DNA of 15,187 bases from an uncultured Planctomycetota bacterium (GTDB lineage: Bacteria; Planctomycetota; Phycisphaerae; Sedimentisphaerales; Anaerobacaceae), in contig CAIYOL010000135.1 in assembly GCA_903927855.1 (NCBI GenBank), forward strand, positions 1 through 15,187. Direction: 5' to 3'. Numbering within the stretch: position 1 is the first letter of the stretch; every line of letters starts with the position of its first letter. Made by a program: the position numbers and the translations under genes. Under the pieces are notes generated by a model. It saw only the letters and a list, made by a program, of their open reading frames with translations. It was not told the DNA's origin and did not search any database. Below, one piece after another: positions 1 through 15,187 of the stretch.

Positions 1-1126
1 TATACATCTTGTCAAAAAGCTTCTGAGCATTTACGACCGCGGCCCGCATCATATCTTCGGCTTTGGCAGTCTCGCGTTTTGCAAGGGCGGCCATCAACGC
101 CTTTGTGTCCAGCTCTTTCGCAGCCTTCTCGCAGGCATCCCAGCTCAATACGCTTCTAATCACTCTATCGATTCCCTGTTTGGCGTTGTCGTAGGCGCGT
201 GTCTGCATATCATGGCCCATCCAGCGACTGAAGCCGGCCTGCTGGAGAAGCCCTGCAATGGCGACATTAAAACCATTTATTCTGGCGCCGTTGTCTATGT
301 CATACTTGCCGGGGCCGCCGAGAATTATGCCGTCGTTGTAACCCTGGCTGTTCAGATGCATATGCACCATCATACCGTTGTCCAATTCCTCAACGGTGTC
401 ATAAACGTGGTCAAGACCAATCATTTCCGAATGGCCGAACTCTTTGTTTACGCCTTTTTTGTCGATGGAGACACCGAACTCTTTCTCGATTTTTCTCCAG
501 AACACTATCGCACTTGCCACAGTCGGAATCAGCATCGCGGGATGTCCCTCGTTGGGCTTCGGCTCGAAGCCGATATGAAGGCTGCCGCCTTTTTTCTGTT
601 CGTATTTGCACAGGCCGGCTACGCTTTCCTTAAGGTTTTGATACATCTGCCTGATGCCTACAGTGGCAACATCGTATCCGAACGAGCCGTTCCATATAAC
701 AAACGCCGGCGCCTTTTTGATGTCCGGATGCCAGGCCTTTTTCAATTTTCCGTAAGCGAGGTCAACCGTCTTTGTGCCCAGCTCTTCTGCAGCTTTGCGC
801 TCACTGGGGTCGAGCGAGGCGATACCGCCGTAGGCGAAGTGGCTGTGCGCGCCCGGGGTTATCATCGCCAGATACAACTTGTTATCCACAAGTGCATCAG
901 CAACATCGGCGGCATTTTTATCGTTGACTTCGGAGTCGTAGTGCATCTCGATGCCCAATTCGATATTGTCCGGAATATTGGGCCGAATCTTGTCAGCCAC
1001 CAGCTTAATCATCTCCGGTGTGCCGAACTTGCCGCCCCATTCAGGTCTCATATCACCGGGAACAAAACCGCCTTTGCCCGGATTAAACGTCCATCTGCAA
1101 ATACTGTGTAAAGATTTACCTGCCAT
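1..1126 (-). CDS. xylA: Xylose isomerase-like TIM-barrel protein, C-terminus cut off by the window edge
   Basis: Probable D-xylose isomerase (D-xylose to D-xylulose, metal-dependent, cytosolic). At least 375 residues are present and no stop is reached before position 1. Family signals seen: FEPKPNE near residues 187-193, with E188 in the place of the first metal-binding glutamate; KEFGHSEMIGLDH around 228-240, with E229 and H232 in the E-x-x-H spacing of the second metal cluster; and aspartates D276 and D278 in KYDIDNG. The usual HLNDQ motif is changed to HLNSQ, so this is a divergent member and another sugar isomerase or epimerase of the same fold is possible. The ATG follows AGGAG about 7 nt upstream. 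It lies 1 nt after the xylB stop, so the two are surely cotranscribed, and this neighbour is the strongest functional argument. Confidence 0.78.
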   Translation of the reverse strand, partial: MAGKSLHSICRWTFNPGKGGFVPGDMRPEWGGKFGTPEMIKLVADKIRPNIPDNIELGIEMHYDSEVNDKNAADVADALVDNKLYLAMITPGAHSHFAYGGIASLDPSERKAAEELGTKTVDLAYGKLKKAWHPDIKKAPAFVIWNGSFGYDVATVGIRQMYQNLKESVAGLCKYEQKKGGSLHIGFEPKPNEGHPAMLIPTVASAIVFWRKIEKEFGVSIDKKGVNKEFGHSEMIGLDHVYDTVEELDNGMMVHMHLNSQGYNDGIILGGPGKYDIDNGARINGFNVAIAGLLQQAGFSRWMGHDMQTRAYDNAKQGIDRVIRSVLSWDACEKAAKELDTKALMAALAKRETAKAEDMMRAAVVNAQKLFDKMY

Positions 1127-1127
1127 T

Positions 1128-2624
1128 TTAACTGCTCCTTTCCATTTGATGTTTCAAAACAAGCTCCCATTTCTCGTAAGCTTGTTTATACGCTTCCGAC
1201 AATTTACTGTTCGGTTCAATTTTCTTAACTGGTTTCAGCCCGGCAAAAGCTGCCTCCGGGCTCTTATAGATGCCTGCTCCTATGCCGGCACCTCTGGCGG
1301 CGCCCTGCGAACCGTCAGTATTGTATAGTTCCACGACCGAGCCCGTAATGGTTGCAAAGGCCTCTGAAAAAATCGGGCTGAGGAACATATTTGCGTGACC
1401 TGCCCTGACAGTTTTTGCATCAACGCCGACCCGACGCATTATACCAACGCCGTAGTTCAATGCAAAGACAATTCCCTCCTGTGCCGCCCGCAGAAGATGA
1501 GCCCTGTTGTGGAGATTGAAGTTCAGGCCGTGAATGGATGCCCCTGGGTCTTTATTTTCCAGCGTCCTTTCAGCCCCATTTCCATAGGGCAGAACCACAA
1601 GTCCATCACTTCCTACTTTAACGCTGCCGGCCAACTCATCCATTTTCGGGTAATCCAATCCATCGGCGGCGTTATGTTTCAGCCAGCTATTCAGGATTCC
1701 TGTTCCGCTGACGCACAACAGCACGCCATACCTTGGCTTTTTGGTGGTGTGAGTAACGTGAATAAAGGCATTGACTCTCGACTTGCTGTCGTAATCGCTT
1801 TTTTCGGTGATTCCATAAACCACACCTGATGTGCCTGCGGTTGCCGCTATCTCGCCGGGGTTGAGGACATTCAGCGATAGTGCATTATTGGGCTGGTCGC
1901 CTGCCCGGTATGATATTTTGGTACCGGCTTTTAATCCCAGCTCTGCAGCCGCGGCTTTTGTCAGTTCGCCCTGCACTGAGAAAGTCGGCACCGCCTCGGC
2001 AATTAAATCTTCTGAAATTCCATAATAGTCCAGCAGAAGCTTGGCAAGTTTATGTTTCTTGTAATCCCATATAATCCCTTCAGACAGGCCGGAAAAAGTC
2101 GTTTTTATTTCGCCCGTCATTTTCATCGCGACATAGTCGCCGGGCAGCATCATTTTGTAGACTTTGGAATAAATATCCGGCTCATTTTCCATAACCCATT
2201 TTAATTTCGAGGCGGTAAAATTGCCGGGCAGGTTAAGCATAGTTTCGAGGCACTTTTTTTCTCCGATTTCCGATGCCGCTTTTTTAGCAAGCTGCACGGC
2301 CCTGCCGTCGCACCAGATTATCGAGGGCCTGAGCACCTCTTTGTTTTTGTCCACGATAACTAATCCGTGCATCTGATATGAAATCCCGATTGCTTTAACA
2401 TCAGATGCGTCAAAATCAGTCTGGGATTTAATCATCTGGGTCGCCTTGACGACGTGCTCCCACCACATGCTCGGGTTCTGCTCGGCCCAGCCGAACTTCT
2501 TGGCGATGATTTCCATTTCTTTCTTTGGCGAAGTTGCCGCCGCCAGGACTTTTCCCGTTTCAGCATTCATCAACGTGGCTTTAATCGAAGAGCTGCCGAC
2601 ATCGTATCCTAATAATAGCGTCAT
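1128..2624 (-). CDS. xylB: Xylulokinase (FGGY-family carbohydrate kinase)
   Basis: Phosphorylates D-xylulose to D-xylulose 5-phosphate with ATP, feeding the pentose phosphate pathway. The 498-residue length is normal for the FGGY family. The N-terminal actin-like domain begins with the phosphate-binding segment GYDVGSSSIKA (residues 6-16), followed by WAEQNP (46-51), SYQMHG (82-87) and IIWCDGRA (102-109). The second domain begins near YRAGDQPNNAL (239-249), where D243 is the expected catalytic base, and continues with ATAGTSGVVYG (261-271), the ATP-binding loop. The ATG has an AAAGGGG ribosome-binding site about 8 nt upstream. It sits 23 nt after the upstream nucleotidyltransferase gene and 1 nt before xylA. 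FGGY kinases differ in substrate, so the xylulose assignment leans on the adjacent xylA-like gene. Confidence 0.9.
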   Translation of the reverse strand: MTLLLGYDVGSSSIKATLMNAETGKVLAAATSPKKEMEIIAKKFGWAEQNPSMWWEHVVKATQMIKSQTDFDASDVKAIGISYQMHGLVIVDKNKEVLRPSIIWCDGRAVQLAKKAASEIGEKKCLETMLNLPGNFTASKLKWVMENEPDIYSKVYKMMLPGDYVAMKMTGEIKTTFSGLSEGIIWDYKKHKLAKLLLDYYGISEDLIAEAVPTFSVQGELTKAAAAELGLKAGTKISYRAGDQPNNALSLNVLNPGEIAATAGTSGVVYGITEKSDYDSKSRVNAFIHVTHTTKKPRYGVLLCVSGTGILNSWLKHNAADGLDYPKMDELAGSVKVGSDGLVVLPYGNGAERTLENKDPGASIHGLNFNLHNRAHLLRAAQEGIVFALNYGVGIMRRVGVDAKTVRAGHANMFLSPIFSEAFATITGSVVELYNTDGSQGAARGAGIGAGIYKSPEAAFAGLKPVKKIEPNSKLSEAYKQAYEKWELVLKHQMERSS

Positions 2625-2647
2625 TTATATAACCCCTTTCTTTAAAA

Positions 2648-4081
2648 TCAGGCCAGGTAAACTCTGTCCATCGGTTTAATTTCAGGTATCTTACACAGTT
2701 TTGTTTTAATGTCATCTTTTTCTAATGCGAAACTCGGTGCAATCTCGATGAGGCAATCAACCGAGCTATCCGGCTTCCTTGGGACGGCTGCGCCTGCCGA
2801 TTCGAGCCAGGCGGCGCCGCGAGCGACAATCATTTCTTTGGCACTTTCAACACTGTCGACGCCGGCGGCATTCTTGACTGGAGCAAACTCCTCGCTTCGC
2901 AGGGTCTCTAAAATTATCGATTTTGAGGCCAACGGCAAGGCGTCAAAAACGAAACTTTCCAATTTTACACTATTTGGCCCGTCAGGTTCAACAAAATTTC
3001 CGTGCTGGTCGATGTGCGGAATTTCCTTGACGGCCCTGTGCAGCGGCAAAACAAAACCGCCAGCGTTGAGCTTTTCAACGAAGGTACGGTTGATAATGTG
3101 GATGGCGACACTTCCGAGCCGGAAGACCGAAGACCCATCGGGATTTTGTTTTTCCGCCAGCTCATCAGGTAAATCACTATATTCGACGACGGTCACTCTG
3201 CCGTCAACCAGACCAAAGTTGCCGACCCTTTCCTTCGGCCCGGTTTTTATCACCGCCTTTGAGGACATTTCGGCCTCATCGAGGGCGTGCAGGCCGATGA
3301 ATAGCGGGTCAAAAATGTTTATGAGGGGATTATCAACTTGTAAATAGCTGATAAATTCCACGCCGCGTCTTTTCATATCCTCGATGGCCCCGCTTTTGTA
3401 GAGAGCTTTTAAGCTTCCGCCGTGTCCGTCGGGCGAACAGGCAATACAGTCCTTGTCCGCCAGAAAGATTTTGCCGTCTAAATTAAAACTGGGCAATGTA
3501 CCCTGCTGGAATATAAAGACATCTTTTTCGTTAAGGCCGTAGTAGCCATTCGAACGGAAGATTTCTTTAGTTTCATCATGGTTGAGGGGGCTGGTCATAA
3601 TGTACCAGGGGCAGACGGTTTGGTATTTTTCCGAGACGGCTGCGATTATTTCGGCAAAGATTCTGAACAGCGTTTTGTTTTTAACAGGGCTGATGGGAAA
3701 ATTTCCCTTTGGTCCGTCAAATCCGAGTCTGGTTCCCTGTCCGCCGGCGACGACAAAGGCGGCAACTTTGCCGGCCGATATCAGTTCCCTGCCTAATTCT
3801 ATGGCTTGGTTGTATTTGCGTTTTTGTCCAGGGCCAACTGGATTGAGACTGTAGAACGGAGGAGGGGCAAAATTAACAGGCACAGGCGCAGCAGCTGATT
3901 TTTTAACGTAGTCAGCCACCCACCCGTCTATTTCCGCAAAATCGAGCTTTTCGATTTGTGCAAGCAAATTACGCCTTTGAGAGGCGTTTAGCTGCTCCCA
4001 AAAGGCCAAAAGATGGCTCTGGTTGTGTTTTTTCAGCAGTTTTTTTGTTTTTTCAAAGGTTTCTTTGTTATTCATGTCCAC
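2648..4081 (-). CDS. UDPGP/UAP1-type uridylyltransferase (UDP-N-acetylhexosamine or UDP-sugar pyrophosphorylase)
   Basis: Transfers UMP from UTP to a sugar 1-phosphate to make a UDP-sugar and pyrophosphate. The 477-residue protein has the helical N-terminus and Rossmann-like core of the eukaryotic-type UDPGP family. GGQGTRLGFDGPKG (113-126) is the nucleotide-binding signature, SPDGHGGSLKAL (216-227) matches the PDG-x-GG block, and LQVDNPL (about 247-253) corresponds to the metal-binding VDN segment of UAP1-like enzymes. It is not GlmU-like. Sugar specificity (GlcNAc, GalNAc or glucose 1-phosphate) cannot be read from these motifs. The reading starts at GTG, with AGG about 9 nt upstream; an in-frame ATG two codons later (4073-4075) is a possible alternative start but is poorly spaced from that site. 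It is the first gene of the operon with xylB and xylA, which is an unusual pairing. Confidence 0.85.
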   Translation of the reverse strand: MDMNNKETFEKTKKLLKKHNQSHLLAFWEQLNASQRRNLLAQIEKLDFAEIDGWVADYVKKSAAAPVPVNFAPPPFYSLNPVGPGQKRKYNQAIELGRELISAGKVAAFVVAGGQGTRLGFDGPKGNFPISPVKNKTLFRIFAEIIAAVSEKYQTVCPWYIMTSPLNHDETKEIFRSNGYYGLNEKDVFIFQQGTLPSFNLDGKIFLADKDCIACSPDGHGGSLKALYKSGAIEDMKRRGVEFISYLQVDNPLINIFDPLFIGLHALDEAEMSSKAVIKTGPKERVGNFGLVDGRVTVVEYSDLPDELAEKQNPDGSSVFRLGSVAIHIINRTFVEKLNAGGFVLPLHRAVKEIPHIDQHGNFVEPDGPNSVKLESFVFDALPLASKSIILETLRSEEFAPVKNAAGVDSVESAKEMIVARGAAWLESAGAAVPRKPDSSVDCLIEIAPSFALEKDDIKTKLCKIPEIKPMDRVYLA

Positions 4082-4103
4082 AATTTCAGACCTAAAAACA
4101 GGG

Positions 4104-4131
4104 ATTTTAAGCGAATTGCGGAAATTTTCAA
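4104..4131 (-). promoter_or_regulatory. Predicted sigma70-type promoter for the nucleotidyltransferase-xylB-xylA operon
   Basis: Read on the minus strand, TTGAAA (4126-4131) and TAAAAT (4104-4109) each match five of six consensus bases and are separated by 16 nt. Transcription would start near 4097, about 16 nt before the GTG start. It lies back to back with the plus-strand promoter at 4161-4189. No operator was recognised between them. Confidence 0.6.
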
Positions 4132-4160
4132 GAAAGTTAGGGGAAATTGACGAAATTTAT

Positions 4161-4189
4161 TTGACAAAAAGGGTATATGGTGCTATTGT
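4161..4189 (+). promoter_or_regulatory. Predicted sigma70-type promoter driving the pseudopilin-like gene
   Basis: A perfect TTGACA (4161-4166) is followed after 17 nt by TATTGT (4184-4189, four of six consensus bases). The inferred start near 4196 leaves a leader of about 410 nt before the ATG at 4607. A second promoter closer to the gene cannot be excluded by reading alone. Confidence 0.55.
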
Positions 4190-4606
4190 CTAAATAGAGG
4201 TAAGTAGGTTTGAAAAACCTTTTATCATAACTTAAAAATGCTATCATAACTTTACTTCGTTTATCATACCTCAAGCCTACCTGCCAACAAAGAAGCTTAT
4301 TTCAGTTTGATTTATGCTACCGAGCCGAAAGCAGCATTGAACGCAGAAAGAAATTGCTTATAAACCTTGTTGGTAAAACTCGGTTCTACAAATTTGAACC
4401 GGTTGCTCTTAGGCAAAAATAAACAGTAAATTAGAGAGATTCGCGAAAAAACAGTGTCCTTATACTTAGATATTGCAAGGGTTGGTATTTTGCGACACGT
4501 TGCAAAATGCGGACTAAAAGTCAGCTGCAAATTTATTAAAATATGACCAAAACGGGCTTGAGAGTAACCGGGCTCGTGAATCTCGGAAGAAGTGAAGGAG
4601 AAAAAA
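4190..4606 (+). other. Long AT-rich leader or intergenic region with small hairpins, no gene
   Basis: No convincing ORF lies here. Visible structures in order: AGGTTT-GAA-AAACCT (4206-4220) followed by four T's, resembling a weak early terminator; three spaced direct repeats (4223-4271, listed separately); CGGTTC (4381-4386) pairing with GAACCG (4396-4401) across a 9-nt loop; and ATTTTGC (4487-4493) pairing with GCAAAAT (4502-4508) across an 8-nt loop. The end carries the strong ribosome-binding site GAAGGAG (4594-4600). I looked for the conserved core of cyclic-di-GMP riboswitches and did not find it. No known riboswitch class was recognised. Confidence 0.45.
4223..4271 (+). repeat. Three evenly spaced direct repeats TATCATAAC/TATCATACC
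   Basis: TATCATAACTT at 4223-4233, TATCATAACTT at 4242-4252 and TATCATACCT at 4262-4271 have starts 19 and 20 bp apart, close to two helical turns. They lie 34-82 bp downstream of the -10 of the plus-strand promoter, so they would be inside the transcribed leader. Regular spacing fits an operator or iteron-like array bound on one face of the helix, but no binding protein is known. Chance in AT-rich DNA is the alternative. Confidence 0.5.
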
Positions 4607-5587
4607 ATGAGAAAAAAATGTTTTACATTAGTTGAGCTGCTGGTCGTGATTGGGATTATAGCAGTGCTGATGGGCATTCTGCTGCCCGCTCTGAGTGCGG
4701 TGAGGCGAACTGCTCAACGAGTAGTCTGCGGATCGAACCTTGCCGGTATCGGCAAGGCTATGCTGCTCTACGCCAACGAGTACGGGGGAGACTTTCCACG
4801 TGCAGGTGGCGCGGGCAGCACATGGGGCACCGATGGAAGTATAATGGACTGGGTCGACCAGACCGGGGCGCAGTACGGCGGCACTCCGGCTTCGGTAACC
4901 GTTACATCAAGCCTTTATCTTTTGGTAAAGTTTGAGGATGTGACACCGGGGCAGTATGTCTGCAAGGGCGACGCCGGTGCCAAAGAGTTTAAACTTTCTG
5001 ATTCTGGGACTCTCCCTCCTGCGATTGATGATATTACCGATGTTTGGGACTTCGGCAGTCAGAAAACGTCCCCCACCGCCGCTTGGCCGGGCCAGTATTG
5101 CAGCTACGCCTATCATGTCCCCTACGATAACGGTAAAATCACACCCGCGATATCGTTTCCACTCCGTTCGGATAGCAACCCTGCCAGCCCAGCGTGTGCA
5201 GACAGGAACCCTTACTGGGATAGGAATGCTACCGTTTATCTCAATGGTAGTTCTTGCGCCCCCGGTAGCACAGAAGCCGCCCCAACCTGCGACACCACTA
5301 GCGGTTACAAGGACGAAAACAAGACGGGTAATGCGGCAGCACACCAGCGAGACGGGCAAAATGTCCTGTTTGTTGACACCCATGTGAGGTTTGAGAAGTT
5401 CCCCAATGTCGGTCTTACAAAGGACAATATCTGGAAACCTTGGGCTAGTGCTGCTCCTCCCTCTACCAACTGCGTAAGAGAGCTCGGGCAATCAATGTGT
5501 GGCGACAAGTCGGATGGACTTGCTGCTTACCCAGCACCATTTAATGAACAAGATGCGTTCCTGGTAAGTGAGACTAACAAGAGATAA
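4607..5587 (+). CDS. Pseudopilin-like secreted protein with type II secretion/type IV pilin N-terminus and DUF1559-like C-terminal motif
   Basis: A 326-residue protein beginning [16 protein letters not shown], a prepilin-peptidase signal with cleavage expected between C5 and F6, glutamate E10 at mature position +5, and a hydrophobic helix to about residue 30. The residue before the cleavage site is Cys instead of the classical Gly. The middle is a Gly/Ser/Pro/aromatic-rich exported-type region with nine cysteines in all. Near the C-terminus, [18 protein letters not shown] (246-263) resembles the H-x9-D-G block of DUF1559-like planctomycete proteins, with one extra residue (H246 to D257). The ATG at 4607 was chosen because GAAGGAG lies 6 nt upstream; an in-frame GTG at 4592 overlaps that site. 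It is a single-gene unit with its own promoter and terminator. Exact role (surface fibre, secretion pseudopilin or extracellular protein) is unknown. Confidence 0.85.
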
Positions 5588-5611
5588 CATCTGAAGCTTA
5601 CTATGTTTATG

Positions 5612-5645
5612 AGCGGCCTTGTGCTAAGCGCGAGGCCGCTTTTTT
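5612..5645 (+). terminator. Rho-independent terminator of the pseudopilin-like gene
   Basis: AGCGGCCT (5612-5619) pairs perfectly with AGGCCGCT (5633-5640) across a 13-nt loop and runs into six T's, 25 nt after the stop codon. The T-tract is only on the plus-strand side, so it serves the upstream gene and not the leftward cassette. Confidence 0.88.
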
Positions 5646-6322
5646 ATTGGGGATTTGAGGCAAACGAGGGGTTTTTGGGCTGAAAGAAGAAAAGGGTGAA
5701 ACGTGTCTTTTTTTCGCTTAAGTTTATGTGAGGCAAGGGGTTAAATGCATATGATGGAATCCGCCTACGGCGGACAAGAAGTGTTAAAACATGGGTGAAA
5801 CGTGTGCAAAGTGAGGAAAAAAGTGCAAAAATGTTGAAAAACAGCATTAAAACCATACCGGAAAGTTTGAAGAAATTGGACAATTTTGAATGTTGCTAAG
5901 GTGCAAAGGCTGGGAGAAAATTTAGCCACAGATTTCACGGATTTACACAGATTTTTTTGACGCGGATTTCGCTGGTTACGCAGGAAGTTTGGCCGGGATG
6001 TGTTCTCGACAAAGCTTGTGCTCCAAACTTAGTTTGTCAGCCAAGTCTTCGTCTCGTCCACCTGGCAGCTATGCTGCCCCGCCTTGTCAGGCGTCCGGCC
6101 TACCTTCTATATAAGCTGAGTAAAAAAGCATCGATTACCTTTGATTGATAGGATTGACGCGGTTTTTGGGTTTGCGGGCCCGTCTTCGCCAATCCTTCTT
6201 CGCCGAAGCTACGAAGGACAGGGGGCTACGTCGGACAAGTGCGGGACGCCGAAGGCGAGTTGCCTAAGTTAACAGAAGTTTTTGGCACAGTGGTTCGGGG
6301 GAAAAAGTGTTTTTTCAGCCAA
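5646..6322. repeat. Non-coding repeat patchwork: small palindromes and degenerate direct repeats
   Basis: No credible gene; short ORFs here lack ribosome-binding sites and family resemblance. Repeats seen: GGGTGAAACGTGT twice (5694-5706 and 5793-5805); hairpin TCCGCC-TAC-GGCGGA (5760-5774); a degenerate run CACAGATTT, CACGGATTT, ACACAGATTT (5927-5954) and CGCGGATTT (5961-5969); palindrome CAAACTTAGTTTG (6024-6036); hairpin GGCAGC-TAT-GCTGCC (6064-6078); TCCTTC (6193-6198) pairing with GAAGGA (6213-6218); and three copies of CTACG-NN-GGACA (5765, 6209 and 6226), two of them identical at 13 of 14 bases. It resembles decayed REP/MITE-like intergenic repeats. No transposase or tRNA was seen. Confidence 0.6.
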
Positions 6323-9244
6323 CTATGTTGTGAGTGCATCATGCCATTCTCTTTTTATTCGCAGGAAGTCCCAAAGTTCGATATTATTTTCATGTCCCGC
6401 ACGTTTCGCATCATCAGAGAAAGTTGATGTTGTAGCCAAAATAGCCTTATCAGCTTTGTAACGATTTTTGACACCTGCCAATTCGTCAATTTTGTCTCGT
6501 CCCACGGGATGTTTCCACCGTTTGCATTGAATAATGACTTTTTCAGTTTCGTTGTTTGCAAACACGTCCACTCCATCATCATTTGTAAATCGGGTCGTAA
6601 ATGATTTATAGCCTTTGTGACGGAAAAGATTGGTGATTTCAAATTCGAATTGTCTTGCTTCTATTAATTTTATTTTCTTATTTAGCCCCACTAATTCATC
6701 TGTACTAAGTTTATTGCACTTTTCAAGAACTGCGATAACAGAAGGATGAGCGCAGCCACTAACATCTTGCAAATTTTGGATGATTTTTTTGCAAAGTAAA
6801 GAAGCGTTCTCTAATGCTCCTTCTTGTAAAAGAGCTTCAATTTTAGAAACCTGCTCAGAAGCCCAATGTTCCACTTTGACTTGTTCGGTGGTTTTCTCGC
6901 GCTTTTCAGTGGCAACTTGTTTGCTTACTTCAATGAGTTGAATAAAATCTATGGGATCTGGGATTGAAAAATCCTCTTCTTGTAGTTGAGCTTTAAATGT
7001 TTCCTCAAGTAGCTCTTTATCCTTGCTTTGTAGCCGAGCCAAAACTGTGTCATCAGGCTTCCTGCCCACAATCCAATGGAAAAATTTTTGAATTTCTGTT
7101 AATTCAGCCCAGGTAGTTCTGTTCTTACAGTATTGTTCGTGGTTAAAAGCCATCGATTTGATTTCTTCATTCGCTGCGCTGCCAGCAACTCTTGCAAAAT
7201 CATTGGCAGCATCCTCAAAATGTCCTTGCTGCTCCTTACATTTTCCAAGAAGAAAATAAGCCTCCCCAATCTCCTCGGCTTCCATTCGGTTTTTGAGCAT
7301 ATCCTTTAATTTCTTGATTGCGTTATCGTAATCCGACATATCATATAATACTTTTCCAAGAAGTAGATACGCCTTTGGACAAAGAGCGGAAAAACGGTAG
7401 ATGCTAATAACAGATTCCAACAAATTTTTAGCTGTGAGTCCATTGTTTGAATTTGTGCACTTTTGTGCTTCTTCAAAAAGCACACGAACCTCTTTTTCGT
7501 AATTTTCTTTTAATCTTTCAAGTTCTTCCTGTGATAAAACACGATGTAAATGCATTAACCTTCGTTCTTCTATTACAGTCCAAGCAAGTGAAGGTGATTT
7601 GATTACAAACTGCCCGGTATTCAAACCAGGAATAAACTGCGAGGCTGGTTCAAAGTCCAAATCAGCAGCACTTGCCCCTTGTTTAATCTTCTGACGTTCT
7701 CGTTCGGTTCTCAATTGGCCTACTGCCCACGTGCCACAATTGCCAAGAGCTCTGTGATCAATATCCCCCGGACTCTGAGTAGCAAATATGCAGCAAACTC
7801 CAAATGCACGACCCTGTCTCAAAAGTGAATTTAGAGCAGGTTTGGAAGGTGAGATAGCTACAGGAGGGAAAAAGGCTTCTCTGGAACCGCCACCACCTAT
7901 TTCGTCGATGTAGAAAATTAATTTTGGCTTATCCACACCTTTAAGTTGTTTCATCCAAAACCAAATAAGATATGCTATATAGCCGACAACATATGCTTGG
8001 TCTTGAAAGTTTAGATGTTTTATATTTATGATGGTAACAGGTGTCTTATTGCCATAGTTCTCTCGATTTGTTAGCTCCTCAATATTCAAAGGAAATCCCT
8101 GAAACCATAATTTTTGTGGACCGATCAATAAAGCATTTATAGCAGATGCAATTTCATCTCTGTCTTTTTGAGATATATATTTGTCAGTGTCCATTCCGCC
8201 AATCTGTTCTATACCAAGGTAGCCTAACTGTATTTCATCAAGGACTTGTTTTATACCACTGTAACCTCGCAGACTTTCTCCCTTATTCCAGAAATTTTTG
8301 ATAATTTCATAGATATATCCTCTGGCCTTATTAACTTTCTTCTTGTTGGTGAGGGACAGACGTGACACAAATGTCTCTGCCATAAAACCGATGACGGATT
8401 CAAAATCATCAGGGTCTTCTTCTTTTAGCTCTTCCAGATTTTCTGGCGGTTCAACAAATGCTGAAAGAGCAAGTCTAAAACCAGCGTTAGATCGTTGCGT
8501 AAAAACGTTTACTGCAACTTTCCTCTTAAAGTCATTAACATCTTTATCACTCAGACCCCAACGCAGGAGTTTCGTTTTATGTTCTTCAGCTACAATTGCA
8601 GCCTTAGCCTCTCTGCTTTCATTTTTGTCTGGTGTTACCCATGGTATTAATTCCGCTGCGTCTTCTCCAGAAAAAACTATCCCCATACTCGATATGTCAC
8701 CTTTGAGGTCGATGGCGATAACCGGAATACCCTCGCGCGCTGCTTCTTCAATAAAAATTTTGGCAAGAACTGTTTTACCGCTACCGATTTTACCGCAAAT
8801 AAATGCATGTTGCAATAAATCCTCCTCTTTTAACGCTACTACTTCCCCAGTCCGTATGAGTTCAAAAAACTCTGGCAAAAGCTTATTGCCCAAATACAAG
8901 CCTTGCTCGGGACGGCAGATTTTGACATTATCCATGTTTCCAGCTGGAGGTGGAGACTCTTTAGAAAAGGTAACACCAAAACTACAGGGGGCATCACTTT
9001 TCCCTTCTAAGTTTAACGATTTGATGTCTTCGTCTTTCAGTTCTCTCAACCAAGGATCCAGCCCGACAATCGTTCTGTCTTGCGTATTGATCCGTATAGA
9101 TAGTTTAAGACCATTGGGTTTTGAACAGATGCAAGTAATAGAGCCATGAACAATTAAATCCTTTGCTAATTCTTCAGGTATTCGCAAAAGGTCGCTTCTG
9201 CCTTTAACCAAAGAGATTAGATATGATTTACCGATAATGCTCAT
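6323..9244 (-). CDS. HerA/FtsK-type ATPase fused to TPR-like helices and a C-terminal Mrr-type restriction nuclease
   Basis: A 973-residue multidomain protein. Residues 1-110 are not recognised. Residues about 115-560 form a HerA/FtsK-like P-loop ATPase: Walker A GKIGSGKT (151-158), a second conserved strand IDLKGD (178-183), Walker B LIFYIDEIGG (442-451, D447 and E448), the ATQSP sensor segment (488-492) and the Arg-rich RTERER (512-517). Residues about 600-690 contain helix pairs of TPR type (AYLLLGKVLYDMSDYDNAI; AYFLLGKCKEQQGHFEDAA). Residues 710-860 are charged helices. Residues 864-965 form an Mrr-like PD-(D/E)xK domain: FEFEITNLFRHKGY, then GVD with D893, then IIQCKRW with Q906 and K908; the catalytic set looks intact. 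The ATG has AGGA 6 nt upstream and lies 12 nt after its partner gene. It is predicted cytosolic, an ATP-driven motor with DNA-cleaving potential. Function is inferred, probably defence. Confidence 0.85.
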   Translation of the reverse strand: MSIIGKSYLISLVKGRSDLLRIPEELAKDLIVHGSITCICSKPNGLKLSIRINTQDRTIVGLDPWLRELKDEDIKSLNLEGKSDAPCSFGVTFSKESPPPAGNMDNVKICRPEQGLYLGNKLLPEFFELIRTGEVVALKEEDLLQHAFICGKIGSGKTVLAKIFIEEAAREGIPVIAIDLKGDISSMGIVFSGEDAAELIPWVTPDKNESREAKAAIVAEEHKTKLLRWGLSDKDVNDFKRKVAVNVFTQRSNAGFRLALSAFVEPPENLEELKEEDPDDFESVIGFMAETFVSRLSLTNKKKVNKARGYIYEIIKNFWNKGESLRGYSGIKQVLDEIQLGYLGIEQIGGMDTDKYISQKDRDEIASAINALLIGPQKLWFQGFPLNIEELTNRENYGNKTPVTIINIKHLNFQDQAYVVGYIAYLIWFWMKQLKGVDKPKLIFYIDEIGGGGSREAFFPPVAISPSKPALNSLLRQGRAFGVCCIFATQSPGDIDHRALGNCGTWAVGQLRTERERQKIKQGASAADLDFEPASQFIPGLNTGQFVIKSPSLAWTVIEERRLMHLHRVLSQEELERLKENYEKEVRVLFEEAQKCTNSNNGLTAKNLLESVISIYRFSALCPKAYLLLGKVLYDMSDYDNAIKKLKDMLKNRMEAEEIGEAYFLLGKCKEQQGHFEDAANDFARVAGSAANEEIKSMAFNHEQYCKNRTTWAELTEIQKFFHWIVGRKPDDTVLARLQSKDKELLEETFKAQLQEEDFSIPDPIDFIQLIEVSKQVATEKREKTTEQVKVEHWASEQVSKIEALLQEGALENASLLCKKIIQNLQDVSGCAHPSVIAVLEKCNKLSTDELVGLNKKIKLIEARQFEFEITNLFRHKGYKSFTTRFTNDDGVDVFANNETEKVIIQCKRWKHPVGRDKIDELAGVKNRYKADKAILATTSTFSDDAKRAGHENNIELWDFLRIKREWHDALTT

Positions 9245-9256
9245 AACTTGTCCTAC

Positions 9257-11302
9257 TTAGATATATAGCCAAAACAATATAATGCCCCCGATTGTAAGAA
9301 GAAAAAACATAATTAGCAATATAGCTAAAAACAACTTGGATATGCCTGATTTTGCAGACGTTTCAGGGAGAGACCCCGAATCATCCACACTTTCCTTAAC
9401 GGTGGAAACAAATGTGTCCTCTTCACTGACTTGGGGTGGCTTTTTAAACCATTCTTCCAGTGCCCATGTCCCATCATCCAATCTTCTCAAGTGTTTATCG
9501 TCTGCTTTTAGGAATCCAGTAGCTTTTAACTTATCCGAGTCTACCTTTAGAAGATCAGCTAATTTAGCGCATATATCACTAAAACTAAGCGGACGTCCAA
9601 TTTTCTGAAGCAGTTTATAAACATAATCATTTTCTTCTATAAGTTGGACGATCTTCCATATATTTTCATCGGGAGATTCGGTAGGAATAACTTGGGGAGG
9701 GCCTACTGTAATTATTGGCTTTTCGCTCCCCCGACCAGTTAATTGCCATTTGCCTGAACCTACACATACAAAGACAGATGGTGAATAACGAGAAAGTGTT
9801 GCGTCTATACTACTAACAGAAACATTTCGGTGCGTAGCTATTTCTGTATAAATTTCACGATAGTGCATTGGTATTTTAAATTTTGCCAAAGTCACAATAA
9901 TACAATCTCGCAATGAACTGTGTTTCCAGTCCAAATCTTGCGGTTCGATGGATAGTAATTTTTCGAGCGATTTCTGCCATGTTGCAGTTATAGATAATCG
10001 TGCAGGCGCAAGACCTTCTAGCTTTAGATGTACCCTGTCAAATTCTGCAATAGCCTTTGCTGAATAAAAATCTTTAAGTCCTTCTATTCGCCCATCGTTA
10101 TCAGAATAAGGCATAATTTCGTCTACTTGGTCATATATTATGTGAACAGTATTATTCCCTTCCATATAGTTGGATATTCTCTTTGGCACAATAATTATGC
10201 CCTTGTCAATCCAGTCTTCTCTAATAGTTACAGTCGATTGCGCCTTTCCATCTGCATCATGTTTATTAGATATTGGATAAACCCGAATTGGGCCTCCTCT
10301 TTGCTCAGGTTGCCCGAACTTAACTTTAAATTCTTTTTCATCGGAGAGTTTGGCCAATTCATCTGAAAATTCTTTGCCGGAAAGTACCTGTTTCAAAGCA
10401 TCATAAACAGCTTCTATATAATGGTCGTATGGAAAAGAGAAGACAACTATATCAACACAACCATGATAGAATAAAAGATTGTCTAAGTCAGGTAATATGC
10501 AAAGATGTCCATCTTGAAGAGTTTTCTTGCTAATAGTTGTATTGACATCCCCAGATGGTTTTGGTAAATCCCACCTTGCAACTGAATCGGGAATTAAAAC
10601 AAATCTTCTATCGCAATTCAAAAAATAGTTTAGGCTAAATCCCAAACGGCTATTCGAAAGCCCCTTGTTGTCTTCTGTTTGCAACTTTCCAAGGATTTCA
10701 CTCATTGACAACTGGCATTTTGCCTTTGCAATAATTTTTCTGACTTCAACAAGTTTATCGGAGATATTTGGTATTAATAATTCCGTTAGAAACCAGTGTT
10801 GCTGAAAGGCGACAAACCGCTTATCGTTTGAAATCACAGTTAATATTTTTGGAATGACTTCATTCTCGTCTTTTTCTTCAATTATTTGCAAAGATACAAC
10901 TCCTGGTCCTGCGTATTCTGTGCCTTGATAGTTGCTAATATATCTTTTATATTGACCACCTCTTAAAGTTGCGTCCTGACTCAATAAAACTACGTATAAC
11001 TCATCATAAGAGAATCCATCAGAAAACATGCAATTTCTTGATACTTCAGTTACTTGAGCTAGAAAAACCCCACTTGGGATTGAAAGTGAACGTAAAGTAA
11101 TTACATCTCCTTTGTGATACTGTTTACGTCTATCATACGGAAGATAACCGGTTTTTCTCCAATAATGTAAGCTTAAGTATAATCGCGCAAGTTCATTGAT
11201 AGTTTTAGGTTCGGGCCCTTTTAACCACTCTTTTATCAACAGGTCTAGTTCTTCCAGCCCGAAAGTTAGATCAGCAAGGTTTATGTGAAAGTTATCTTCC
11301 AT
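9257..11302 (-). CDS. Tail-anchored protein with HARE-HTH-like winged-helix domains, partner of the HerA-Mrr fusion
   Basis: A protein of 681 residues from the ATG at 11302; the open frame runs further up to a TTG at 11464, but that extension covers a consensus promoter and an inverted repeat, so the ATG is preferred although it lacks a clear ribosome-binding site. Residues 1-180 and 250-450 are not recognised. Around 463-523, PMHYREIYTEIA followed by a short helix-turn and FVCVGSGKWQLTG fits the HARE-HTH winged helix. About 561-618 (GRPLSFSDICAKLA ... DGTWALEEW) looks like a second, and about 186-246 (LSMSEILGKL ... RFVLIP ... W) a possible third. The last 25 residues (LFLAILLIMFFLLTIGGIIL and on) are one C-terminal membrane helix, suggesting a tail anchor with a cytosolic body. 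HARE-HTH domains are known with restriction and DNA-modification enzymes, fitting the nuclease encoded next. Confidence 0.75.
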   Translation of the reverse strand: MEDNFHINLADLTFGLEELDLLIKEWLKGPEPKTINELARLYLSLHYWRKTGYLPYDRRKQYHKGDVITLRSLSIPSGVFLAQVTEVSRNCMFSDGFSYDELYVVLLSQDATLRGGQYKRYISNYQGTEYAGPGVVSLQIIEEKDENEVIPKILTVISNDKRFVAFQQHWFLTELLIPNISDKLVEVRKIIAKAKCQLSMSEILGKLQTEDNKGLSNSRLGFSLNYFLNCDRRFVLIPDSVARWDLPKPSGDVNTTISKKTLQDGHLCILPDLDNLLFYHGCVDIVVFSFPYDHYIEAVYDALKQVLSGKEFSDELAKLSDEKEFKVKFGQPEQRGGPIRVYPISNKHDADGKAQSTVTIREDWIDKGIIIVPKRISNYMEGNNTVHIIYDQVDEIMPYSDNDGRIEGLKDFYSAKAIAEFDRVHLKLEGLAPARLSITATWQKSLEKLLSIEPQDLDWKHSSLRDCIIVTLAKFKIPMHYREIYTEIATHRNVSVSSIDATLSRYSPSVFVCVGSGKWQLTGRGSEKPIITVGPPQVIPTESPDENIWKIVQLIEENDYVYKLLQKIGRPLSFSDICAKLADLLKVDSDKLKATGFLKADDKHLRRLDDGTWALEEWFKKPPQVSEEDTFVSTVKESVDDSGSLPETSAKSGISKLFLAILLIMFFLLTIGGIILFWLYI

Positions 11303-11372
11303 AACTAATCTGATAAAAATTAGCCAGGCAATTTCTCCGCCATTGGTATAAATCCCCGAGTATTTCGGGTAA

Positions 11373-11401
11373 ATTATATTGCAGGTATTGTATTGGGTCC
11401 A
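11373..11401 (-). promoter_or_regulatory. Predicted promoter of the winged-helix/HerA-Mrr cassette
   Basis: On the minus strand, TGGACC (11396-11401, four of six consensus bases) is followed after exactly 17 nt by a perfect TATAAT (11373-11378). Transcription would begin near 11366, leaving about 64 nt of leader before the ATG at 11302. This placement is the main reason for rejecting the longer reading of that gene. Confidence 0.6.
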
Positions 11402-11423
11402 CGACAGAAAAGCAATAACTGGG

Positions 11424-11488
11424 TCCCAGATAACGGCATTCTGGGATCTACGCTGCGCTCGCAAAGACCCCCGGCACAGGTCCGGGGG
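11424..11488. repeat. Two inverted repeats between the cassette and the aconitase operon
   Basis: TCCCAGA (11424-11430) pairs with TCTGGGA (11440-11446) across 9 nt, and CCCCCGG (11468-11474) pairs with CCGGGGG (11482-11488) across 7 nt. The stretch between them, with CTACGCTGCGCTCGC, is typical of dispersed intergenic repeats. Neither stem has a T-tract, so they are unlikely to be standard terminators. They lie between divergent promoters and mark the edge of the AT-richer cassette. Confidence 0.5.
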
Positions 11489-11504
11489 CTAAACGAAAAG
11501 CGGA

Positions 11505-11533
11505 TTGACGATAAAGAGAGGCGATGATAGACT
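11505..11533 (+). promoter_or_regulatory. Predicted sigma70-type promoter of the aconitase operon
   Basis: TTGACG (11505-11510, five of six) and TAGACT (11528-11533, four of six) are separated by 17 nt. The inferred start near 11540 leaves a short leader of about 23 nt containing the GGAG ribosome-binding site (11552-11555). Confidence 0.5.
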
Positions 11534-11562
11534 AACCACTTTAAGTTTTACGGAGAGTAGAA

Positions 11563-13539
11563 TTGAAGCAGACGCTTGTCTATAAGATATTGGCTGGGCA
11601 TTTAGTTGAGGGCAAGATTGCCAGCGGCGAGGAAATCGGCATTCGGATTGACCAGACGCTTACGCAGGACGCTACGGGGACGACGGCGTTTCTGCTGTTC
11701 GAGTCGATGGGAGCAGGCAGAGTCAAGACGGCCCTTTCGGTAAGTTATGTCGACCACAATATAGCAGGGTTCGGGCCTGAAAACCAAACGGACCATATAT
11801 ATCTTCAAACGGCGGCGGCCAAGGCGGGAGTTTATCATTCGCGGGCGGGCAACGGCATCTGTCACCAGGTGCATTTGGAGCGGTTCGCTAAGCCAGGCGC
11901 GACACTATTGGGGAGCGATTCGCATACGCCGACGGCGGGCGGGATAGGTGCATTATCAATCGGTGCGGGCGGGCTGGACGTGGCGGTGGCGATGGGAGGC
12001 GGGCCTTTTTATCTTACGTGTCCGAAGGTGCTCGGGGTGAAACTTACAGGGAAACTGGCTGACTGGGTGGCGGCGAAGGACGTTATATTTAAACTATTGA
12101 GTGAACTTTCGACAAAAGGCAACGTCGGGTGGGTGGCAGAATATTTCGGGGAAGGCGCATCGGGATTGACTGTGCCGCAACGCGCGACGATAACAAATAT
12201 GGGAGCGGAGCTTGGCGTAACGACGAGCATATTCGGAAGCGATGAGCAAACGAGAAAATTCTTAGCGGCCCAAAAAAGAGAAAAAGACTATCAGCCGATG
12301 GCGGCGGACGAGGATGCCGAGTATGACCGCGTCATTGAGATAAATCTTGGCAAGCTTAAGCCGATGGCGGCGTGTCCATCTTCGCCTGACAATGTAAAGA
12401 CAGTCGCGGAAATAGCAGGGATTCAAACGGGGCAGGTTATAATCGGGAGCTGCACAAACTCGAGCTTTTCCGATTTGATGATGGTCGCAAAGGTATTGAA
12501 GGGCAGACGCATAAACAATATGGTCGAATTTTCGATTGCGCCGGGCAGCAGAGAAGCGCTGAATATGCTGGCGGAGAATGGGGCGCTATCGGATATTATT
12601 TCAGCGGGCGCCCGCGTACTGGAATCGGGGTGCGGGCCTTGCATTGGTCAGGGTCTTTCGCCGGCGGAAGAAGTGGTGAGTTTGAGGACGTTCAACAGGA
12701 ATTTTTTGGGGCGGAGCGGGACGCCCAGCGACCAGGTTTATTTAGTCAGTCCCGAAACGGCGGTGGCATCGGTTTTGACGGGGCGGATTACTGACCCGCG
12801 AGAACTGCCTAAACTTTTCGGGATAGAATATCCTAAGATAGAGATGCCGGGGGAATTTGTGATTAACGATAATATGATAGAGAAGCCCCTGAGCGAAAAA
12901 GAAGCGGCGAAAGCGGAGGTCATACGCGGGCCGACGATTGTTGTGCCGGAGGCGCCGACGAGGCTACCGGACAAATTACAGGGGCAGGTACTAATTAAGT
13001 GCGGGGACAAGATAACGACCGACCATATTATGCCTGCGGGGCGATTTCTGAAGCTGCGTTCGAATGTGCCGGAATATGCAAAGGTGGTCTTCCACTGTTT
13101 CAACGAAAAAGATAAACCGACGTTTGCCGAGCGGGCGCTGGAATTGAAAAAGAAGGGGACAGCCGGCGTTATTGTGGCGGGCGAGAGTTATGGGCAGGGG
13201 TCGTCGAGAGAGCACGCTGCGCTTTGCCCGATGTATTTGGGGGTTCGCGCGGTGATTGCAAAAAGCATCGAGCGAATACACAGGGCGAACCTGATTAACT
13301 TCTGCATTGTGCCGATAGTGTTTGTTCAGCCGGGAGACTACGAAAGAGTCAAACTCGGCGACAGGCTGCAAATCGACGGGTTGCTGAAAGCAATTGAGGG
13401 CAGCGATGAAGTTGTGATTGCCGACAAGACAAGCTCGTTTGAATTTTCCGGCAGACTGGAACTTTCCGACAGGGACAGAAGAATTTTGCTCTCAGCGGGA
13501 TTGTTAAACTACACCCGCAGCAAAGCAAATGAAAGATAA
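11563..13539 (+). CDS. Aconitate hydratase, short Aquifex-type
   Basis: Interconverts citrate and isocitrate through cis-aconitate in the TCA cycle using a 4Fe-4S cluster. The 658 residues match the short Aquifex-type aconitases, which carry both the three-domain core and the swivel domain in one chain; a LeuC-only protein would be near 420-470. Seen in order: QDATGT (35-40), GSDSHTPTAGG (117-127), GSCTNSS (295-301) with cluster ligand C297, SGCGPCIGQG (355-364) with C357 and C360, then the swivel domain with GDKITTDHIMPAG (481-493) and the substrate loop GESYGQGSSREHAA (540-553). All three cluster cysteines are present. The start is TTG, preferred because GGAG lies 7 nt upstream and no in-frame ATG is nearby. 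It is first in an operon and overlaps the next gene by 11 nt. Homoaconitase or isopropylmalate dehydratase activity is a less likely alternative. Confidence 0.88.
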   Translation: MKQTLVYKILAGHLVEGKIASGEEIGIRIDQTLTQDATGTTAFLLFESMGAGRVKTALSVSYVDHNIAGFGPENQTDHIYLQTAAAKAGVYHSRAGNGICHQVHLERFAKPGATLLGSDSHTPTAGGIGALSIGAGGLDVAVAMGGGPFYLTCPKVLGVKLTGKLADWVAAKDVIFKLLSELSTKGNVGWVAEYFGEGASGLTVPQRATITNMGAELGVTTSIFGSDEQTRKFLAAQKREKDYQPMAADEDAEYDRVIEINLGKLKPMAACPSSPDNVKTVAEIAGIQTGQVIIGSCTNSSFSDLMMVAKVLKGRRINNMVEFSIAPGSREALNMLAENGALSDIISAGARVLESGCGPCIGQGLSPAEEVVSLRTFNRNFLGRSGTPSDQVYLVSPETAVASVLTGRITDPRELPKLFGIEYPKIEMPGEFVINDNMIEKPLSEKEAAKAEVIRGPTIVVPEAPTRLPDKLQGQVLIKCGDKITTDHIMPAGRFLKLRSNVPEYAKVVFHCFNEKDKPTFAERALELKKKGTAGVIVAGESYGQGSSREHAALCPMYLGVRAVIAKSIERIHRANLINFCIVPIVFVQPGDYERVKLGDRLQIDGLLKAIEGSDEVVIADKTSSFEFSGRLELSDRDRRILLSAGLLNYTRSKANER

Positions 13540-14050
13540 GACAGTAACCATCTTCGGCACGGCCAATGCGAAGTCCGGCGATGCGGCTTACGAATTGGCA
13601 TACGAAACCGGCAAATTGCTGGCGCGGGCGGGGTTTACGATAGCCAACGGCGGGTACGGCGGTACGATGTTAGCGGCGGCCAAAGGAGCAACTGAAGCGG
13701 GCGGGGAAACGATTGGCGTTACCTGCTCGGCTTTTAAGGGCAGCAAGGCCAACGAATATGTAAGCCGCGAGATTGTTACCGAATCGCTGGATGAACGGTT
13801 AGATACTTTGATAAAACTGGGGCAGGGGTACGTTGTGCTGCCGGGCGGAACAGGGACGCTGCTGGAACTGGCGAAGGTTTGGGAATTGAAAAACAAAGGC
13901 TTTATCAAAGAAGATAAACCGATTATACTGGTGGGCGGATTTTGGAAGCCGCTGGTTGATTTAATCGCAACTGAAGACCCGGACAGCAGCCGATACATCC
14001 GGCCGGCAGATGGGCCGGAGCAGGTTGTAGAATTGATTGTTGATTATTGA
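13529..14050 (+). CDS. LOG-family (lysine decarboxylase-like) nucleotide phosphoribohydrolase-like protein
   Basis: A 173-residue Rossmann-like protein of the LOG/TIGR00725 group. Members cleave the base from nucleoside 5'-monophosphates (cytokinin activation in plants, nucleotide clean-up in bacteria); the old name lysine decarboxylase is misleading. Seen: NGGYGGTMLAAAKGA (40-54), the glycine-rich nucleotide loop, and PGGTGTLLE (105-113), the family signature with its catalytic glutamate. The arginine usually just ahead of this signature may be R90 in DERLDTL. The ATG is inside the end of the aconitase gene (11-nt overlap), so translation is probably coupled. Substrate cannot be decided from sequence alone. 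Confidence 0.85.
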   Translation: MKDKTVTIFGTANAKSGDAAYELAYETGKLLARAGFTIANGGYGGTMLAAAKGATEAGGETIGVTCSAFKGSKANEYVSREIVTESLDERLDTLIKLGQGYVVLPGGTGTLLELAKVWELKNKGFIKEDKPIILVGGFWKPLVDLIATEDPDSSRYIRPADGPEQVVELIVDY

Positions 14051-14073
14051 TTGGTTCGACGGGCTCACCATAT

Positions 14074-14871
14074 ATGAGCAAGAGAACGGTAATTTTGATT
14101 TTCGCGCTTCTAAGCTGTGCTGCATTTTGTGCAGGTGCGGCCCGCAAAACTCCGGCGGCAGGGCCAGGGGTGCGGGACGGCTTCGGCCTGATGGGCATCG
14201 ACGGCGAATTGAGCAGCAGTGAGGGCAAATGGTTTTTCAAATTTGATTCAGAGGTGAGCGACGGTGCGGGGCAAATCAAGGCCGGTGAGACTATCGAACT
14301 GCTACCATCGACGGCACTGGGAAAAATAATCGCTGACGCCGGGAAACGGCCTGAGGCAAACTACCGGCTTTGGGGCGATGTTACAAAATACAAAGGCAAA
14401 AATTTCATATTCCCGGTTTACTTTTTGCCTGTCAGCTCAACAGAGGACATAAACAGGCCGGGGGAACCGCCGAAGGTCAAGATAGCCATCAATGAGCCGA
14501 ACGATGCATTGCCCATGCCGGAAGAGATAGTAGGCAAGCTCAAAAGCAGGCGCGTCCTACGCCAGGAACAGCTGCAAGAGGGGCTGCAATTGAAGCAGGA
14601 TTATGTGCTGACCGACAGAACGGCTCTTTTAGGCAAGAGAACCGACGGCCAAGCTGAAGTTATTCTCGATGCTCTCGGCCGGAACATCCCGCGGATTTCA
14701 CTGAGGCTGCTGCCCTGTGAAGTTTTAGAACGGGCACAGCAGGAGCAATCTGCGGAGCCTGACCCGGTGCGGTTCAAAATAGCGGGGATTATAACGCAGT
14801 ACAAGGGCGAATATTATCTGCTGCTGCAGAAAGCGATACAGGCTTACAGCCACGAAAACTTTGGCGGATAA
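14074..14871 (+). CDS. Exported protein or lipoprotein of unknown function
   Basis: No family recognised. The 265-residue product starts MSKRTVILIFALLSCAAF, with a basic N-terminus and hydrophobic stretch. LLSC at 12-15 is compatible with a lipobox, giving a lipoprotein cleaved before C15; ordinary signal peptidase cleavage after AGA is the alternative. The mature part has two similar segments, YRLWGDVTKYKGKNFIFPVY near residues 92-111 and FKIAGIITQYKGEYYLLLQK near 236-255, which suggests a repeated small beta-rich fold. The ATG at 14074 is preferred over an upstream in-frame TTG at 14047 because the TTG overlaps the LOG stop codon and would bury the signal peptide. The ribosome-binding site is weak. 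It lies between the LOG gene and hisD in the same operon. Confidence 0.65.
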   Translation: MSKRTVILIFALLSCAAFCAGAARKTPAAGPGVRDGFGLMGIDGELSSSEGKWFFKFDSEVSDGAGQIKAGETIELLPSTALGKIIADAGKRPEANYRLWGDVTKYKGKNFIFPVYFLPVSSTEDINRPGEPPKVKIAINEPNDALPMPEEIVGKLKSRRVLRQEQLQEGLQLKQDYVLTDRTALLGKRTDGQAEVILDALGRNIPRISLRLLPCEVLERAQQEQSAEPDPVRFKIAGIITQYKGEYYLLLQKAIQAYSHENFGG

Positions 14872-14882
14872 AGGAGTAATTT

Positions 14883-15187
14883 TTGCCAAACGAACTTGAC
14901 AAAATCCTAATTAAATACGACCAGCCTGATTTCAATGAACGGTTTGCGGCGGTCAGGACGGCCGTTGTTCGCGGGTCTCATTTTATCGGTGAAAAAGAAC
15001 AACAATTAGAGGCAATTCTTATCGAAGTAACCAAACGCGATGATGAGGCAGTAGCAGAATTCACGGAGAAATTTGACGGGGTGAAACTTACCCCTGAGCA
15101 ATTTAGGATATCGGAGACGGAGTTAAATAATGCCCACAAAGCAATCGACAAAAAACTTTTGAGGTCGATTCGCCAGGCGATTAAGAA
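14883..15187 (+). CDS. hisD: Histidinol dehydrogenase, N-terminal part cut off by the window edge
   Basis: Catalyses the last two steps of histidine synthesis, L-histidinol to L-histidine, with NAD and zinc. Only about 101 residues are visible. The pattern VTKRDDEAVAEFTEKFDGV, followed by an ISETELNNAHKAID helix, is the characteristic N-terminal arm of HisD; the NAD- and zinc-binding parts lie beyond the window. The start is TTG, supported by AGGAG (14872-14876) 6 nt upstream, which overlaps the end of the preceding gene. Spacing of 11 nt from that stop makes cotranscription with the aconitase group likely. Confidence 0.85.
   Translation, partial: MPNELDKILIKYDQPDFNERFAAVRTAVVRGSHFIGEKEQQLEAILIEVTKRDDEAVAEFTEKFDGVKLTPEQFRISETELNNAHKAIDKKLLRSIRQAIK

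Follow-up and report, generated by a model that had tools for sequence, protein, structure and literature searches.

The window analysed here is the complete contig C135, 15187 bp long, from an assembly of 417 contigs and 2.05 Mb that is ~90% complete and 5% contaminated. Two genes on its minus strand, referred to here as A and B, are flanked by one gene that reads as prepilin-like in translation and another that reads as aconitase-type. Both open reading frames were found without interruption. Their features, and those of the slot that holds them, are the following.

5652..11538, no strand: variable slot from the prepilin-like to the aconitase-type gene, holding A and B
6323..9244, minus strand: gene A (973 aa), encoding a HerA motor followed by TPRs, a linker of helices and an Mrr nuclease
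8855..9244, minus strand: A residues 1-130, modelled at low confidence and assigned to no family
7565..8854, minus strand: A residues 131-560, HerA/FtsK motor with Walker A K157, Walker B D447/E448 and Q490
7115..7522, minus strand: A residues 575-710, TPR repeats (Pfam and AF2)
6665..7114, minus strand: A residues 711-860, helical linker that none of the listed family matches covers
6356..6664, minus strand: A residues 861-963, Mrr-type nuclease (Pfam E 7.6e-25) with D893, Q906 and K908
9257..11302, minus strand: gene B, 681 aa, upstream of A, with ATG at 11302 and TAA stop at 9257
10562..10765, minus strand: B residues 180-247, possible third winged helix (hhalign)
9740..9913, minus strand: B residues 464-521, HARE-HTH-like winged helix 1 (sub-threshold)
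9443..9628, minus strand: B residues 559-620, HARE-HTH-like winged helix 2 (sub-threshold)
9260..9334, minus strand: B residues 657-681, predicted C-terminal membrane helix (hydropathy)
11373..11401, minus strand: promoter-like site upstream of B, 10/12 matches

The initial annotation had described a 12-nt gene spacing and one promoter. The first was measured again as 12 nt, from the stop codon of B to the start of A (9244). As to the second, the site at 11401-11373 does exist, but promoter-like sites occur in the region at chance density (14, vs 13.3 ± 3.7 in shuffles), so a single promoter for the cassette is unproven. The longest reading frame of B begins at TTG 11464; its start is probably ATG 11302 instead, because the only relative of B, found in genome G080 (41% identity across its 409 aligned residues), aligns from about MEDN there.

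How did these genes come to lie between their neighbours? The same-genus genome G002 aligns with both flanks, at 85% identity on the left (1-5651) and 81.5% on the right (11539-14946), but not with the slot interior. Among nine relatives, five (G003, G005, G006, G012 and G013) have a prepilin-aconitase distance of ~170-390 bp, three (G001, G002 and G009) hold unrelated cargo in the same slot, and in one (G007) the prepilin match was not found on the stretch fetched. Since the slot is nearly empty in these five, the prepilin-like and aconitase-type genes are otherwise neighbours, and the cassette probably arrived by insertion between them. The other cargo consists of a beta-helix/dockerin protein in G001, a 1001-aa ORF in G009 and, in G002 (L059:7780-10245), an AAA-type P-loop ATPase of 821 aa, whose AAA_22 score of 27.0 bits is at the cut-off. 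This ATPase has a GC of 0.39, is without match in G000 and G001 and is a possible defence NTPase. As it is the only other cargo that could be defence, and PADLOC gave no match to it, the slot is not proven to be a defence hotspot. A search of the slot for repeats, with a 14-nt minimum that misses shorter target duplications, found neither inverted pairs nor a direct repeat linking the two borders. The GC3 of A (0.33) and B (0.30) differs from that of seven neighbour genes (0.53-0.62), and the G080 copy of B has 29% GC on a contig with 47% GC. By its variable slot and its composition, the A-B pair resembles accessory DNA gained by horizontal transfer. Two further observations concern the surroundings. 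The ~670 bp between the prepilin terminator and A (5652-6322) are without a convincing gene and contain a direct repeat (5687/5786), possibly debris of an earlier insertion. In G009 the prepilin-like gene beside the slot (L077:5498-6781) seemingly carries, by eye, a Hint-like C-terminal extension.

Gene A encodes HerA and Mrr domains in one uninterrupted chain, so the claimed fusion of motor and nuclease holds, and so do its two halves, a motor ATPase with intact Walker motifs and a C-terminal Mrr nuclease. Pfam scores are above the cut-off for Mrr_cat (87.7 bits, cut-off 21, residues 861-963), HerA_C (38.9, cut-off 22), DUF87 (31.3, cut-off 23.2) and TPR_2 (27.5, cut-off 27). K157, D447/E448, Q490, D893, Q906 and K908 are all intact and aligned with the same positions in relatives. 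Walker A, Walker B, the sensor 1 Q and the HerA fold place the motor in the HerA/FtsK superfamily; the Mrr_cat score together with the D...QxK residues places the nuclease in its family. The AF2 model, folded from a 26-row alignment (A2) whose nuclease columns contain stray C-terminal residues from some of the HerA rows, reaches a pLDDT of ~90 for HerA, ~80 for the TPR and ~96 for Mrr. Alignments A3 and A4 were set aside, as their nuclease rows looked misaligned. Residues 1-134 stay below a pLDDT of 50 nearly throughout, and the nearest HerA relatives match A only from ~residue 115-133 onward. Fold comparison of A covered mainly residues 104-711, and a search of the PDB with the nuclease sequence gave no meaningful match.

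To which motors is A related? Except for three, the strong motor matches that were fetched belong to a family of ~800-860 aa with ~29-36% identity to A. In a 17-row tree, A and these three (G293, G181 and G267) split from the ~820-aa HerA family with a support of 100/100; the position of A within this subclade is weakly supported (85/76), and the branches of A and G181 are long. An insert after Walker B is present in 4/4 subclade proteins vs 0/30 others, duplicate fetches being counted once. The possibility that A is a plain member of the ~820-aa family was rejected on both grounds, the tree split and the absence of the insert from all 30. The motor matches were fetched in part, with the f33-family rows and most class rows among those left out, and further subclade members are possible. 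In the widespread family (L039-L055, L065, L066 and L081-L091) a DE..G[YF].PP-like sequence follows Walker B, and no annotation was seen. The initial annotation had counted homologs consistently found as core genes outside defence contexts against its reading. On this point the ~820-aa family is indeed widespread and perhaps core, but the 30 members examined lack the insert of A; and none of the 21 HerA-type loci compared with the whole of A gave a nuclease match, an absence that bears on the same objection.

The subclade neighbourhoods comprise three loci, an uneven sample in which two of the three contigs are shorter than 6 kb. In G293, whose HerA is the most similar to A, an N6 adenine methylase gene ends in a stop codon that overlaps the first codon of HerA (L056, G293:C587, a 3.6-kb contig). 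In G267 (L058, G267:C274) a HerA-FHA gene, its motor cut by the contig end, is followed by a 160-aa ORF, a PDDEXK_7 nuclease and, by eye, a SNF2-type helicase; taken together they resemble a defence operon, either undescribed or unrecognised. In G181 (L057:520-10387, G181:C2) the HerA-FHA gene follows a TPR protein, an 1111-aa cysteine-rich repeat protein without a Pfam match and SNF2-type ORFs, one of them with a kinase-like N-terminus (kinase, SNF2 and cysteine-rich being assigned by eye). The combination of kinase and FHA suggests phospho-signalling within a HerA system. These motors are accessory-looking, beside methylase, SNF2, PD-(D/E)XK or FHA genes. In PADLOC, mad8 is the HerA-type model that matches A best, and it ranks first for G181 and for G267 (at a low score of 18.9 for G267); for G293 a HerA model (53.6) beats mad8 (44.1).

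The pair itself is rare. Counting its own genome each time, B is present in 2/99 relatives, 2/161 genomes of the order and 1/392 phylum genomes. A-B adjacency was seen in one genome; the other B, in G080, runs off the contig end, and no A-like gene was found elsewhere in that assembly (88% complete). With the whole of A as query no full-length relative was found: it matches 21/99 relatives (own included), elsewhere only in short pieces, mostly of the nuclease, and 57 plasmid records, again in short matches, of which the 20 listed all hit the nuclease end. The motor alone matches 116/392 phylum genomes and 114/397 class genomes (own included), in searches where many of the weaker matches are short and which would not by themselves expose a distant motor-nuclease fusion. 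Peptide-pattern scans of genome_contigs and viral_contigs, which detect close relatives only, found no relative.

B reaches the curated cut-off of no family in Pfam or NCBIfam. It had been described as a partner with HARE-HTH-like winged-helix segments and one C-terminal membrane helix; the single hydrophobic helix and the winged-helix-like stretches are there, but the HARE-HTH assignment stays below threshold (21.7, cut-off 25.9). The closest approach is to the NCBIfam RNAP-delta model TIGR04567, at 41.6 just under the cut-off of 42, over two stretches. Cut out alone, the two C-terminal stretches match the delta model with E 6e-5 and 2e-4, both far below the cut-off, and for winged helix 2 RNAP delta in the PDB reaches only E 0.096 and Pfam HARE-HTH only E 0.18. 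Compared by hhalign with each other, these stretches score 13.6, and shuffles reach 19.8. Residues 180-247, for which HMM searches gave no match, score 20.7 and 21.2 against the two, where the best of 60 shuffles reach 14.3 and 19.1. B appears to carry two weak HARE-like winged helices and perhaps a third. Residues 657-681 are the one strongly hydrophobic segment (best 19-residue mean Kyte-Doolittle 2.94), and B is probably a tail-anchored winged-helix partner. Its AF2 model, built from a 2-row alignment only, has a pLDDT of 39, too low to be of use. A weak pattern is shared by A residues 19-64 and B residues ~369-411 (window 9020-9244 and 10057-10279); it has no Pfam match, its hhalign score of 16.65 is equalled by 2/60 shuffles, and it might be a common docking domain.

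What would such a pair do? A defence role, putative as it is, is likely, and we give an even chance to the reading that the two genes A and B are a cassette against invaders, of the 'HerA/FtsK capture' type. We infer the defence activity, the binding of the partners and the tethering to the membrane. A would assemble into a hexamer, grip double-stranded DNA and pump it, and six C-terminal Mrr domains, carried on TPR/helical arms, would cut the pumped DNA. B, held by its C-terminal helix, may offer an array of winged helices to bind or check incoming DNA, and may dock A, perhaps via the TPRs of A. How would the target be chosen? In the slot no gene for a methylase or for self-marking was seen (ORFs read by eye; families for A and B), so B or Mrr would have to select the target by reading modifications, as in type IV-like restriction, unless DNA is caught at the membrane or a trigger sets off DNA cutting in general. 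A more elaborate version, to which we give a low probability, is an undescribed restriction machine at the membrane that needs no methylase to protect its host: tail-anchored B, using up to three winged helices, would read entering DNA and load the hexamer of A, whose pore would draw the invading DNA into six TPR-borne Mrr nucleases.

In an abortive-infection version, a trigger would assemble or free the complex, A would then cut DNA without target choice and the cell would die; B would serve as its sensor or as a brake. The missing self-marking gene speaks for this version; Mrr-type enzymes, however, are modification-dependent as a rule, and motor and nuclease share one chain with no obvious assembly switch except B. 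The precedent for it is DUF4297-HerA, which acts through assembly-activated dsDNA cleavage and abortive infection (PMC11291478). On balance we find abortive infection rather unlikely. Still less probable is a HerA-NurA-like unit for DNA repair or end processing, acquired as a foreign operon: it sits poorly with the rarity of B in the order (2/161, own included), with the variable slot and foreign composition, and with the absence of NurA from the best 25 of the 28 matches for A and from those listed for B. Similarly improbable is mobile-element machinery for transfer or maintenance, which would read A as a coupling-protein-like motor with a membrane partner. Here, no relaxase, integrase, replication or mating gene was seen by eye among the window ORFs, no relative of B was found in plasmids and phages, and the motor of A alone matched no phage and only four plasmid records at E <= 1e-5, weakly. 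An assembly chimera, a foreign fragment joined to a host contig, is suggested by the composition jumps at both slot borders and by the 417 contigs, but is very improbable given that both flanks are syntenic with G002, that G001, G002 and G009 carry other inserts at the same slot and that another genome of the order has a relative of B.

If the capture reading is true, the logic of HerA plus nuclease is compressible to one chain, paired with a probably membrane-bound DNA reader. The cassette would also be a testable case for defence motors that catch DNA at entry, and the accessory HerA subclade with its insert after Walker B would be a handle for more systems in related genomes.

The capture reading draws on a class already described. 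HerA/FtsK capture systems, including DndH/DndG, were presented by Rakesh, Aravind and Krishnan 2024; in their model, wHTH partners place a HerA-REase apparatus on invading DNA (PMC10853773). As in those systems, a HerA/FtsK motor is joined here to an REase, active as judged by motifs, and a separate winged-helix protein is present (two to four winged helices there), with a mobile, patchy spread (PMC10853773). The cassette has an REase with HerA, its catalysis read from motifs only, a sub-threshold wHTH partner and a mobile neighbourhood. It differs in having HerA first, then TPR and Mrr last, in its HARE-like wHTHs, its membrane helix and its two genes. In DndH the REase is N-terminal to HerA and is accompanied by inactive helicase, TRD and methylase domains, and ORC-type capture systems have an ORC/CDC6 ATPase and an inactive REase (PMC10853773). 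A has another domain order than DndH and the slot holds two genes only, which sets the cassette apart from DndFGH. DUF4297-HerA-type defence complexes are ring-shaped, hold dsDNA and switch on a nuclease that is a separate protein (PMC11291478). SIR2-HerA (Nezha) and DUF4297-HerA resemble the cassette in having two genes, a HerA motor and an effector enzyme; their effector is a separate protein, whereas A has Mrr in cis and the second gene encodes winged helices. The matches listed for A and B include no SIR2 or DUF4297 family (NF042943 26 vs 800).

In MADS, Mad8 occurs together with a methylase, a kinase and other mad genes. The motor of A resembles this ATPase by its PADLOC label, with TPR and Mrr added; the mad8 match covers the motor of A only, none falls on B, neither protein matches any further MADS model, and the slot has two genes. 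The top PADLOC match of A overall is ZorD, at 48.5 bits and confined to the nuclease (residues 852-959). Like ZorD of Zorya type I, with its Mrr-like C-terminus, A combines a motor and an Mrr-like nuclease in one chain; the ZorD motor is SWI2/SNF2, unlike the HerA of A, ZorA/ZorB are absent here and B has no PADLOC match. HARE-HTH-REase fusions likewise combine a HARE-type reader with a restriction nuclease (PMC10853773, PMC12839542); the cassette has the two on different chains and a motor besides. The initial annotation did not recognise the layout as a named system, and in the full-text literature searched, which holds few subscription journals, neither a HerA-TPR-Mrr chain nor its pairing with a HARE-HTH membrane protein was recognised (among the sources compared were PMC12839542, PMC12948488, PMC9519451, PMC7159879, PMC3482391 and PMC11090510). 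The kind of system is already known, and it is the arrangement of HerA-TPR-Mrr with a winged-helix partner that was not recognised in that literature. The cassette, its function being predicted, is apparently a rare variation on known antivirus systems that combine a motor with a nuclease.
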